DNA of 64,000 nt, taken from Chromatiales bacterium (lineage in GTDB: Bacteria > Pseudomonadota > Gammaproteobacteria > Steroidobacterales > GCA-2729495). The notes beneath the pieces are model-generated. The model was not told where the DNA came from. It saw nothing but the letters and a program-made list of their open reading frames with translations, and did not search any database. This document shows positions 152 through 2,524 of the stretch, piece by piece. Positions within the stretch are counted from its first letter, which is position 1. Each line of letters begins with the position of its first letter. The stretch lies in the NCBI GenBank assembly GCA_020351875.1, contig CP070671.1, positions 1,046,103 to 1,110,102 on the forward strand, read 5' to 3'. The position numbers and the translations under genes were made by a program.

Positions 152-364
152 CTTGCCAACCTGTCTTGAGCCGTTCTTTTAGCTTGCTGGACATAAGCTG
201 CCAGGCACCCGGACACAGGTTTCTTTGGCCTTCATCTGGATTATGACGAGCGCCGCCTAAACGCATCAGGCGTGCCGCGACCGCGGCCCCTGACTGCCTT
301 AAGTCGCGGTTATAAAAGGGAATTGGTATAGCCTTCAGGGTAAGCTTGCCAGGGGCCTGGCGCC

Positions 365-380
365 CCTGCTTGCAAGCAGG
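365..380. promoter_or_regulatory. 16-bp perfect palindrome upstream of first PEP-CTERM gene, candidate operator
   Basis: CCTGCTTG followed by CAAGCAGG is a perfect 16-bp palindrome. It is preceded directly by another hairpin-forming stretch (AGGGGC-CTGGC-GCCCCT, 350-366). It sits about 30 bases before the leader hairpin of the first PEP-CTERM gene, where an operator could be placed. It is not repeated upstream of the second or third copy, so it is not part of the duplicated leader. The rest of 152-409 holds no gene that I recognise. Confidence 0.3.
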
Positions 381-409
381 TCTCTGGTTCGGCTACCTTG
401 GAATCCGAT

Positions 410-478
410 GACGCAACGCGCGAAAGCGCGGCTGCGTCTTTTTTTGTCTAAAAGAACAACAAGGAACGCTGACGTTCC
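410..478 (+). promoter_or_regulatory. Structured 5' leader, copy 1 (attenuator-like hairpin plus second hairpin)
   Basis: Bases 410-438 form a GACGCA/TGCGTC outer stem and a CGCGC/GCGCG inner stem closed by a GAAA tetraloop. Seven T follow (439-445), giving the shape of an intrinsic terminator. After an A/C-rich linker containing AACAAC, bases 463-478 form a second hairpin, GGAACG-CTGA-CGTTCC. The gene starts 20 bases later, after an AGAGG ribosome-binding site. The same order recurs before the other two paralogues. The hairpin lies more than 250 bases after yicC, so it is better read as part of the leader than as the yicC terminator. Confidence 0.6.
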
Positions 479-497
479 GATCCGAAAGAGGTCAGCC

Positions 498-1133
498 ATG
501 GATAAGGTTACCGGCCTGTGCGGGAAGGTCATCGCGGTCATTTTTCTGGTGATGCTTACCATCACGGCCAACGCCGCAACGGTGTGGACGGGTCCGGAGA
601 TTACATTCAGCAAGGCGGCGTTCGCAGACCCCACAATGGCCGTCAACCAGGACAGCCTGACACCGCTGGTGTCAATCACCCGCGCTAACACGCAAGGATT
701 GTTCAATCCGATACAGGAACCGTCTTTTCAGTTCGGCGGTGGCAGCCCGATAGGCACCGAGTGGGCCTTCCAGGGCCTGAACGGCAATCCGGACAGTGGC
801 GTCAGCGCGGAAAACTTCGGTTCGCTGATCTTCACCGATTGGCAAAACTCTCTCGAAAGCAGGGTCGGACCCAACATCCTTGACAGGCCTGGCGTCGTGC
901 ACCTGGTCAGCGAGGACATCTATTTCGATATCGTCTTTACCGAGTGGGGACAAGGCGGGGGCGCAGGTGGCTTCTTTACCTACGTGAGAACGTCTGCCGG
1001 AGCCGAGGGAGCCGGGGAGGTAGTTCCCGTCCCGGCAGCTTTCTGGCTGATGGCATCAGGGCTCGGGTTACTCGGATTCCTGAAACAGAGACTTACCCCC
1101 CACCTCCGCGAGCACGTGCAGAACGTGGGGTGA
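498..1133 (+). CDS. Secreted protein with PEP-CTERM/VPLPA-type sorting signal, copy 1
   Basis: This 211-residue protein has a signal peptide (roughly residues 1-26, ending ITANA before ATVWTG). The body carries a conserved EDIYFDIVFTEWGQGGGAGG stretch. Its C-terminal signal is VPVPAAFWLMASGLGLLG (from about residue 176), then a basic FLKQR. That arrangement is typical of substrates of exosortase, the membrane protease that processes surface or extracellular proteins. No exosortase is in the window. ATG 498 is preferred over the in-frame ATG at 408 because 408 lies at the base of the leader hairpin and 498 aligns with the starts of the paralogues. Unusually for a sorting signal, 12 residues follow the basic cluster (TPHLREHVQNVG); they look like a copied yicC tail. 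The function of the mature part is unknown. Confidence 0.85.
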   Translation: MDKVTGLCGKVIAVIFLVMLTITANAATVWTGPEITFSKAAFADPTMAVNQDSLTPLVSITRANTQGLFNPIQEPSFQFGGGSPIGTEWAFQGLNGNPDSGVSAENFGSLIFTDWQNSLESRVGPNILDRPGVVHLVSEDIYFDIVFTEWGQGGGAGGFFTYVRTSAGAEGAGEVVPVPAAFWLMASGLGLLGFLKQRLTPHLREHVQNVG

Positions 1134-1348
1134 CCCGCCCGAGTGCTGCAGTGGCACTCGATCTCCCCCGCCCGGAATCCCAGGTCTGCGGACGTTTGTC
1201 ATAAAGTCCGCCGCGTCGTCGGGCGCCCCGGAACGCGTCCTTCGTCGACCCGTCAGCTCCACATAAGCTTATGATATTTAAATAATTAATTTGACTCCCT
1301 TGCGGCCCTTGAAGAGGGGACCGGAGTGTGTCTAAATGAGAGCCTGAT
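1134..1348. other. Intergenic spacer between PEP-CTERM copies 1 and 2
   Basis: No gene is seen. The stretch 1264-1292 (around gatatttaaataattaattt) is strikingly AT-rich against a GC-rich background. It is a likely promoter or UP-element region for copy 2. I could not assign -35 and -10 boxes with confidence. Confidence 0.4.
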
Positions 1349-1426
1349 GACGCAACGCGCGAAAGCGCGTGTGCGTCTTTTTTTTGCTTTGGCTTAATGA
1401 AAACAACGCCGGAACAAGACGTTCCG
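1349..1426 (+). promoter_or_regulatory. Structured 5' leader, copy 2
   Basis: The GAAA-capped hairpin (1349-1377) is followed by eight T (1378-1385). Relative to copy 1 the outer and inner stems are unchanged and the internal loop differs. The second hairpin is CGGAAC-AAGAC-GTTCCG (1410-1426). Its register and sequence differ from copy 1 but its pairing is intact. An ACAAC motif lies between the hairpins and a CGAGG ribosome-binding site follows before ATG 1448. Confidence 0.6.
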
Positions 1427-1447
1427 AGCAATGAAACGAGGCAAGCC

Positions 1448-2035
1448 ATGACGAAGGTGAGAGTCGTTTGTGGAAAGACCCTGATGGTCGCTTTCCTGTT
1501 CAGTTTGACCGCCGTGGTCAACGCGGCGACCGTGTGGACGGGCCCTGTTATTGATTTCAGTAAGGCGGCTTTTGCGGATCCCGAGGACCCCGCCAACCAG
1601 GACAGCCTGAGCGAAGCGGCGTCTCTGACCCGCGCGTCGACGCGAGGCCTCTACAACGCAGCGCAGGAACCCTTTTTCCAAAGCAGCGGGGGCAGCCCGG
1701 TTGATACGGAATGGGCCTTTGCCGGCCTGGCCGGAAACCCCGACGGAATGATCAGCGCCGAGGACTTCGAGTCGCTGACCTTTTCCGAGTGGGCAACTGC
1801 ATTGGGTGGGCAGGGAAACCTCGCGAACAATGTTGTGGGGACGTCCGGCGTTCTGCACCTCATCTCGGACGACATCTATCTGGATATCGTGTTCACCGAG
1901 TGGGGCCAGGGAGGCGGTGCCGGTGGCAACTTCGCCTACTCTAGGACTTCGCCAATTCCCGTCCCGGCAGCGGCATGGCTCCTCGGATCGGCGCTCGGCC
2001 TGCTCGGCGTCATCAGGCGGCGTCGCCCCGCTTGA
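1448..2035 (+). CDS. Secreted protein with PEP-CTERM/VPLPA-type sorting signal, copy 2
   Basis: This 195-residue paralogue aligns with copy 1 along its whole length. It has a signal peptide (to about residue 26, AVVNA before ATVWTG), shared motifs FSKAAFADP, NQDSL, GGSP and TEWAF, and the block SDDIYLDIVFTEWGQGGGAGG. It ends with IPVPAAAWLLGSALGLLG and the basic tail VIRRRRPA, a textbook PEP-CTERM/VPLPA signal of hydrophobic helix plus arginine cluster. ATG 1448 is chosen over an in-frame ATG at 1397 by alignment with copy 1 and by the CGAGG site just upstream. It is probably exported, cleaved by exosortase and released to the surface or matrix. The precise role is unknown. Confidence 0.87.
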   Translation: MTKVRVVCGKTLMVAFLFSLTAVVNAATVWTGPVIDFSKAAFADPEDPANQDSLSEAASLTRASTRGLYNAAQEPFFQSSGGSPVDTEWAFAGLAGNPDGMISAEDFESLTFSEWATALGGQGNLANNVVGTSGVLHLISDDIYLDIVFTEWGQGGGAGGNFAYSRTSPIPVPAAAWLLGSALGLLGVIRRRRPA

Positions 2036-2136
2036 CAGAATCCCGGACACGGGCGCGGCTATTGGCCATAGTCGGCGATTTAATCGGCCCGAAGGCTTGA
2101 AGGCCACCGCCCGGTCTGCCTACCATAGACAGTGAT

Positions 2137-2216
2137 GACGCACCGCGCGAAAGCGCGGCGGCGTTTTTTTTTGCTTGGCTTCAGCACAACAACAACAAGA
2201 AGACCGGCGTCCCGGT
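2137..2216 (+). promoter_or_regulatory. Structured 5' leader, copy 3
   Basis: The GAAA-capped hairpin (2137-2165) ends in a run of nine T (2164-2172). The inner stem is lengthened by a C-G pair where copy 1 has an A:G mismatch. The second hairpin is ACCGG-CGTC-CCGGT (2203-2216), different in sequence from the other two copies but still fully paired. The linker again carries ACAACAACAA, and the site CGAGG precedes ATG 2233. The leader is well preserved although the gene behind it is broken. Confidence 0.55.
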
Positions 2217-2232
2217 GCCAACGAGGTAAGCC

Positions 2233-2524
2233 ATGAAGACAGTCACAAGGCTTTGTGGGAAAGGAATCACGCTCATATGCCTGGTGGCATTGGCTGCGGC
2301 GGCCAACGGCGCAACCGTCGGCACCGGCCCGCTGGTCGAGTTCCGCCCTGATCAGTGACGACATCTACCTGGACATTACTTTCGCCGAGTGGGGACGGAT
2401 GCAGCAGGGTGGCGGCGCCTTTGCTTACATCCGGTCATCCGTGGTCCCGATCCCGGCGGCGGCCTGGATGTTCGCCTCTGCCTTGGGCTTGCTCGGCCTT
2501 CTCAAACGGCGGCTTGCCGGCTAG
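2233..2524 (+). pseudogene. PEP-CTERM secreted protein copy 3, internally deleted and frameshifted
   Basis: The 5' part reads MKTVTRLCGKGITLICLVAL... to ATVGTGPLVEF, matching the N-termini of copies 1 and 2. The frame then stops at 2356-2358. The following sequence, in another frame, encodes LISDDIYLDITFAEWG..., FAYIR and the sorting signal VPIPAAAWMFASALGLLGLLKRRLAG. Compared with copy 2, about 100 codons between the N-terminal block and the DIYLD block are gone and the join shifts the frame. The signal peptide and sorting signal would therefore no longer be in one protein. A frameshift at the junction would restore a mini-protein of signal plus sorting tail, but I see no slippery site. Confidence 0.8.

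Follow-up and report, generated by a model that had tools for sequence, protein, structure and literature searches.

In control of the CsrA/CsrB type, a multi-hairpin RNA carries repeated loops and a matching motif stands in the leaders of the target genes, while in the RfaH/ops system a leader element acts on the elongation of surface-polymer genes. Small transcription-activating RNAs (STARs), which are synthetic, open a leader terminator by pairing with the 5' half of its stem (PMC5648800, PMC5435934), and in plasmid rep antisense attenuation, RnaG/icsA and Rli21-Rli51 an RNA likewise acts on a leader terminator (PMC8383071, PMC11394854). In environmental bacteria the PEP-CTERM/exosortase proteins are associated with exopolysaccharide. 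Many proteobacterial PEP-CTERM genes are preceded by a shared cis-element of the sigma54/PrsK-PrsR type, and the paper defining PEP-CTERM proteins expected further regulators and motifs (PMC1569441; one mapped case, PMC9850573). Here we describe a leader element found before three tandem PEP-CTERM-type genes in a 64 kb window of a Chromatiales bacterium genome (the window being the whole stretch analysed, from contig CP070671.1), together with a separate hairpin array that appears to carry the complement of the leaders' constant motif, GATGACGC. We favour, with slightly better than even confidence, a reading in which a trans-acting antisense RNA would pair with the 5' ends of PEP-CTERM messenger RNAs (mRNAs) and, in one class of leaders (class 1), prevent termination. 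The broader picture would be a genus-wide natural regulon in which one antisense array activates many surface-protein genes via a shared 5' tag, partly by blocking terminators, with a same-sense sponge (locus L049) as possible counter-regulator; this is a tentative proposal, to which we give rather less than even chances.

Like the synthetic STARs, this system would combine a terminator in the leader with an RNA partner for the 5' arm of its stem. STARs are engineered and have a linear seed region, whereas the toehold in our proposal measures about 3 nt, many genes would share a single array and the case is built from sequence alone. In plasmid rep attenuation, RnaG/icsA and Rli21-Rli51 the RNA promotes termination, whereas here it would prevent it; the plasmid and RnaG antisense RNAs are encoded opposite their target, whereas here a single array faces a regulon. 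The CsrA/CsrB type differs in that the strand on which our array stems stay paired is complementary to the leader motif, a sign of base pairing rather than of protein sites held in common; the array does not look like a same-sense decoy of the CsrB kind, although L049 could still be one. With the sigma54/PrsR element the leaders share their place before many PEP-CTERM genes but not the promoter type: a sigma54 promoter was rejected because none of 48 leaders (0/22 in class 1 and 0/26 in class 2, over the 120 nt before the motif and at no fewer than 9 of 11 consensus matches) has a -24/-12 site, and the promoters look sigma70-like. Since a PrsR gene is present (TIGR02915, 707 bits, over the cut-off), the sigma54/PrsR and leader layers may coexist. 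A NusG paralogue of the RfaH/LoaP kind was also rejected, the single PF02357 match at E up to 0.001 in the genome being nusG itself, in secE-nusG-rplK. Among the papers listed from the open-licence literature, judged mainly from titles and abstract openings, we found no description of such a PEP-CTERM leader/antisense system. Should the pairing prove real, a single RNA would switch an entire class of surface proteins by way of their 5' ends, and there would be a natural example of the RNA-driven release of intrinsic terminators, which two reports (PMC5648800, PMC5435934) describe as engineered.

All three window leaders hold, in the same order, GATGACGC, a GAAA-loop hairpin, a run of T, an ACAAC-rich linker, a second hairpin, GAGG and ATG. 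The original prediction had described such a module before three paralogues, and its parts were found as claimed, including the GAAA loops, the runs of 7-9 T (7, 8 and 9 in copies 1, 2 and 3) and the arms of the second hairpins. What stays constant among the leaders is the 5'-end motif GATGACGC; this motif and the array carrying its complement had both been missed. The motif lies on the plus strand at 407..414, 1346..1353 and 2134..2141, and copy 1 is common to other leaders of the genome and its congeners. The 5' arm of the first hairpin begins inside it, and hairpin and T-tract together form predicted intrinsic terminators at 410..445 (hairpin 410-438 plus T7, -20.1 kcal/mol), 1349..1385 (hairpin 1349-1377 plus T8, -21.3 kcal/mol) and 2138..2172 (hairpin 2138-2164 plus a run of 9 T, -19.4 kcal/mol), all on the plus strand. 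A pattern made from the first hairpin has three exact matches and one with two mismatches in the 3.49 Mb genome and none in a backward control, and the first hairpin is far from chance. Folding z-scores of the entire leaders were -2.25, -3.80 and -0.84 for copies 1, 2 and 3; with a z-score of only -0.84, the third leader as a whole is unexceptional.

The analysis covered one complete genome, that of the window (G000, a single contig), and four draft genomes of the same genus. Firstly, we searched the complete genome with TIGR03370, which gave 21 VPLPA/PEP-CTERM matches at E up to 10, eight of them over the cut-off. GATGA(C/T)GC lies upstream of 15 of these 21, which is independent support for the motif because these upstream regions were gathered by protein family and not by motif. 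L013 is the second gene behind a motif-bearing gene, and the upstream regions without the motif are those of L017, L021, L022, L023 and L025, the last a partial, doubtful match. Secondly, a collecting pattern (motif, 12-42 nt, GCGT, T's) defined the class 1 leaders: 12 elements in the complete genome, 11 of which precede PEP-CTERM genes, versus one in the backward control. The four congeners added ten elements (three in G001, one in G002, six in G003 and none in G004), nine before PEP-CTERM genes and the tenth at a contig end. Across the 22, the base GACGC/GCGT is constant (with one GATGC), while interior and loop vary. The arms nevertheless fit each other: in an arm-swap test, inner arms paired at -12.1 kcal/mol with their own partners vs -6.4 kcal/mol with the arms of other elements, a mean reached in 0/20000 permutations, and still in 0/20000 with two window copies removed. 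All 22 place a predicted intrinsic terminator (5-9 T, predicted energies -16.1 to -30.0 kcal/mol) between the predicted promoter and the gene. The original prediction's selected, attenuator-like RNA structure before secreted surface proteins appears well founded. Its author had looked to related genomes, where a lack of further leaders would have told against the idea; more leaders were found at other PEP-CTERM genes, in the same genome and in congeners.

Sigma70-like promoters were scored in the 70 nt upstream, with 300 shuffle rounds per class. The end of the best -10 box lies 6-8 nt upstream of the motif in 14 of the 22 class 1 leaders (shuffles 1.6, maximum 7). For the second class of leaders (class 2, described below) the corresponding distance is 17-20 nt in 20 of 26 (shuffles 2.6, maximum 7). 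In the window the best -10-like boxes end 7, 8 and 7 nt upstream of the motif in copies 1, 2 and 3, and the predicted promoter of copy 1 (370..399, plus strand; TTGCAA, 18 nt, TACCTT) accordingly ends 7 nt before it. Because the predicted -10 boxes lie at a fixed distance, the motif probably marks the transcript 5' end: those class 1 transcripts should start with GAUGACGC, and those of class 2 with the 5' arm of the motif hairpin.

Other PEP-CTERM leaders carry CCCGATGACGCA without a T-tract and make up class 2. Numbers of sites differ between analyses: 29 were used for arm-swapping, 26 for the promoter scan (L155, L163 and L146 omitted), 25 for a Shine-Dalgarno test (one being too short) and 21 for a strand tally. 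Sites at contig ends or with unclear open reading frames (ORFs), and so without a confirmed PEP-CTERM gene, are L064, L062, L133, L138, L150, L171, L137 minus, L084:2348 and L052:1502. The flanks pair across the motif at -11.7 vs -9.5 kcal/mol when swapped (n = 29; 0/20000 permutations), and the motif therefore appears to sit in a hairpin loop. A second box, TGGGAA, follows the motif at a distance of 15-115 nt in 12 of the 26 class 2 leaders (0.8 in shuffles); 3 of 22 class 1 leaders have the box as well. L024 and L136 are single class 2 cases suggestive of Shine-Dalgarno sequestration.

The complement of the leader motif turned up in an array of hairpins. The five genomes of the genus contain CCGATGACGCA 61 times and the backward control once, and a tally by eye assigned 24 sites to PEP-CTERM leaders, 18 to array units, five to contig ends and 14 to other places. 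PEP-CTERM calls at these sites were made with a regular expression; L068 and L160 were added by eye, and the 'PEP' label of L049 is a false match. The arrays, one in each of the five genomes (L066, L169, L170, L174 and L175), hold 6, 4, 3, 3 and 4 GATGACGC-bearing units, 20 in total, most with a stem of about 15 pairs and the motif in the loop. Their arms pair better with their own partners than when swapped: -27.7 vs -19.3 kcal/mol in the arm-swap test (n = 20; 0/20000), and -28.7 vs -18.0 kcal/mol in 11 non-redundant units (0/20000). We regard this array as real and structured.

Which array strand forms the RNA was read from the way its stems vary. On the motif strand they show 37 A.C vs 5 G.T mismatches (26 vs 4 in 16 less redundant units), and A.C mismatches of this strand are G-U pairs in the complementary orientation. 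One unit, L175_2156, has a poor stem and was left out of the alignments, in which 19 of 20 units were used. RNAalifold folded the complementary orientation at -31.7 kcal/mol (16 pairs, 12 changed on both sides) and the motif orientation at -14.1 kcal/mol (12 pairs, nine changed on both sides). In a fixed 16-pair helix of 303 cells, 96.0% of cells are paired on the complementary vs 84.8% on the motif strand, with 37 vs 3 G-U cells and 39 vs 2 one-sided changes that keep the pair. All five measures on the complementary strand exceeded 500/500 shuffles (shuffled pairing 84.2%) and slid versions of the helix (28-44% paired); the number of further pair types was above 500/500 shuffles on the complementary strand and below 500/500 on the motif strand. 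Since the stems pair best on the opposite strand, the array RNA likely exposes UGCGUCAUCGGG, the complement of the leader motif, in its loops. In one congener the unit next to orfX, a small gene beside the array, reads on the complementary strand as a stem followed by GGTTTTTTCC, and in G002, G003 and G004 a PEP-CTERM gene adjoins the array and reads in the same direction as the proposed array RNA.

Paired in silico, array loop and leader form 9-12 bp at -15.5 to -23.7 kcal/mol in the 11 leaders tested, and the loop pairs with GAUGACGC over at least 9 bp in 9 of 9 class 1 leaders tested. We consider the leaders to be a real, conserved regulatory RNA of one genus, and an interaction between leaders and array likely. 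On the model that we propose, transcription of many PEP-CTERM genes would start at (CCC)GAUGACGC(A), or about 11 nt before it. In class 1 the motif would then form the basal part of the 5' arm of an intrinsic terminator some 40-60 nt long, so that transcription would stop there by default; in class 2 it would be displayed in the loop of a 5'-terminal hairpin. The array, with its 3-6 long hairpins, would be expressed in the opposite orientation, display UGCGUCAUCGGG in its loops and pair with the PEP-CTERM mRNA 5' ends over 9-12 bp. Loss of the stem base next to the U-tract of an intrinsic terminator should permit read-through. Pairing in class 1 would remove just this part of the stem and let RNA polymerase read on; pairing in class 2 would act on the 5' hairpin, on stability or on translation. 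That the array is expressed and pairs inside cells, and which way it regulates, we infer from these features; antitermination in class 1 is our best guess.

Beside the array lies orfX (L066:1907-2398, minus strand, and orthologues), which encodes a small protein with only sub-threshold DNA-binding-type Pfam and NCBIfam matches; on our own reading its sequence is ribbon-helix-helix-like. Of 40 family genomes four have it, all of this genus, and each time it stands next to the array, which lies downstream of it. Elsewhere in the complete genome, L049 (G000:C1, about 1431650-1431800) is a small-RNA-like locus between two convergent genes, with no ORF of at least 80 amino acids between them. It has the class 2 promoter spacing (18 nt), a motif hairpin, a second hairpin, a strong terminator about 60-90 nt after the motif and a folding z-score of -4.6; it is possibly a sponge, although the array model matches its complementary strand at 29.9 bits. 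These two loci bear on the rival that survives best, unlikely as we judge it, in which GAUGACGCA in the leaders is the site of a protein that prevents termination or regulates translation, and the hairpin loci serve as its decoys in the way that CsrB does for CsrA. Such a protein would account for the same 8-12 nt motif in leaders, arrays and the lone L049 with its motif-strand terminator and class 2 promoter spacing, and orfX, with its DNA-binding-type matches and its place beside the array in those four genomes, would be a candidate. The array stems, however, keep their pairing best in the sense complementary to the motif, unlike what a decoy with the same RNA site would do, and G003 shows no orfX yet retains both leaders and array.

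That class 1 hairpins are just constitutive terminators, or 5' stem-loops that stabilise the mRNA, with no partner in trans, strikes us as improbable. They do make good intrinsic terminators close to the predicted 5' end, with the energies and T-tracts given above, but this reading leaves unexplained why a constant GATGACGC base should accompany a freely varying interior, why class 2 carries the motif without a terminator and why a complementary array exists at all. We give still less credence to the motif as a DNA operator near the transcription start (+1) for a regulator such as OrfX, the hairpins being incidental: the motif is not palindromic, class 1 runs on into a terminator with a co-varying interior, G-U pairs are kept on one array strand only and G003 has no orfX, whereas the fixed distance from motif to -10 box and the ribbon-helix-helix-like gene beside the array would suit an operator. 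Tandem gene duplication alone, with the leader copied along with the gene, fits window genes 1-3, which are tandem paralogues, and is refuted by the element's presence before unrelated proteins at distant loci (e.g. L004/L009), as well as in three of four congeners, where the stem sequences differ.

Several results weigh against antisense pairing as we propose it. Class 1 leaders offer an unpaired toehold of only about 3 nt, where engineered STARs have a linear region to seed on; the class 1 stems, with 12 G.T vs 6 A.C on the mRNA strand, lean the expected way only slightly; and the invariance of the motif is partly imposed, because the collecting pattern fixes it. In class 2, which lacks a terminator, the arm-swap test is the one result that supports the stem: a 16-site subset gave a weaker outcome (171/20000 permutations), RNAalifold found no pair in a MAFFT alignment, and on the mRNA strand of 21 sites A.C outnumbers G.T by 21 vs 10, partly through a recurrent internal mismatch. 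The class 2 hairpin is less secure than the others for these last two reasons. Sequestration of the Shine-Dalgarno sequence by the class 2 motif was rejected (mean z of 0 over 24 leaders). As for the array, compensatory pairs arise on both strands, the helix cells are not independent because units within a genome are related, and a clear complementary-strand terminator is seen in only one unit, and several units end in U-rich tails on the motif strand. The motif hardly varies and neither does the array loop, which leaves no co-variation between the two partners. L049, a motif-strand locus, would be a decoy or have another role. G003 keeps array and leaders and shows no orfX, from which it follows that orfX is not required for them to persist. 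Lastly, L077 in G009, a genome of another genus, is one class 1-like leader before a PEP-CTERM gene, with similar promoter spacing by eye and no strong array match.

Leaders and array occur in nearly the same genomes. A covariance model of the complementary array strand, searched in the 40 family genomes, found 19 units at E up to 2.6e-14 in 5/5 genomes of the genus, as it must by construction, and its best match among the 35 other family genomes had E 2.9e-4. At E up to 1 there is some match in 28 of 40 genomes; of six examined outside the genus (L210-L215), the best, L210, lacks GCGTCAT in the matched stretch. L214 (G005, near position 1532, E 0.057) is a weak match that contains GCGTCATCGGGG, perhaps by chance or as coding sequence. 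The class 1 pattern has eight matches in the other 35 family genomes, seven of them not before a PEP-CTERM gene, and a stricter pattern run on a class sample of 369 genomes gave six matches outside G000, none seen before a PEP-CTERM gene. VPLPA-CTERM matches at E up to 0.002 are present in 38 of 40 family genomes, and the element is therefore narrower than the protein class. TCCCGATGACGCAATCT occurs in 25 stretches of named genomes, five of them from two gammaproteobacterial metagenome-assembled genomes (CAKZWQ01, JANQPY01); we take the other 20 to be chance.

Two further ideas about the leaders did not hold. The second hairpin, at 463..478, 1410..1426 and 2203..2216 of the plus strand, is local to the three window paralogues: its score was equalled in 2, 9 and 21 of 200 shuffles for copies 1, 2 and 3, which is modest and in copy 3 weak, and our scan of the 45 nt that follow the T-tract gave no hairpin of 4 or more pairs in 7 of 22 class 1 leaders. 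Thus, of the original prediction's interpretation, the selected attenuator-like structure was supported and the second hairpin as a general part of the module was not. Leader-peptide attenuation was rejected because the ATG frame in GATGACGC has no advantage: frames stay open for at least 13 codons in 19/22 (ATG) vs 19/22 (control) class 1 leaders and in 16 vs 21 of 26 class 2 leaders, the third frame stopping at once. The earlier statement that no named riboswitch of this form is known agrees with Rfam, which gave no match at gathering score in the 64 kb window; permissive scans of window positions 300-2400 and of L066 900-2000 gave sub-threshold matches only, one of them at E 4.3 in 300-2400.

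The three window genes follow a gene that we take to be yicC-like and form tandem paralogues, each coding for a short secreted protein with a VPLPA/PEP-CTERM-like end. Gene 1 (498..1133, plus strand, ATG 498) matches TIGR03370 at E 0.00077, below the cut-off, and gene 2 (1448..2035, plus strand, ATG 1448) lies just below the cut-off in one search and over it in another. The third paralogue (2233..2524, plus strand, ATG 2233) is decayed, with the signal peptide in one frame, a stop soon after it and the C-terminal part with the PEP-CTERM end in another; its leader still has motif, terminator and second hairpin. L096 (G000:C1:3020055-3020094) is the one class 1 terminator leader of the complete genome followed by a short secreted ORF that lacks a PEP-CTERM end. 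In another genus (g7), the PEP-CTERM upstream regions L115 and L122 share other sequence around GTGTGAAC and GTGACGCA, perhaps the site of a different regulator.

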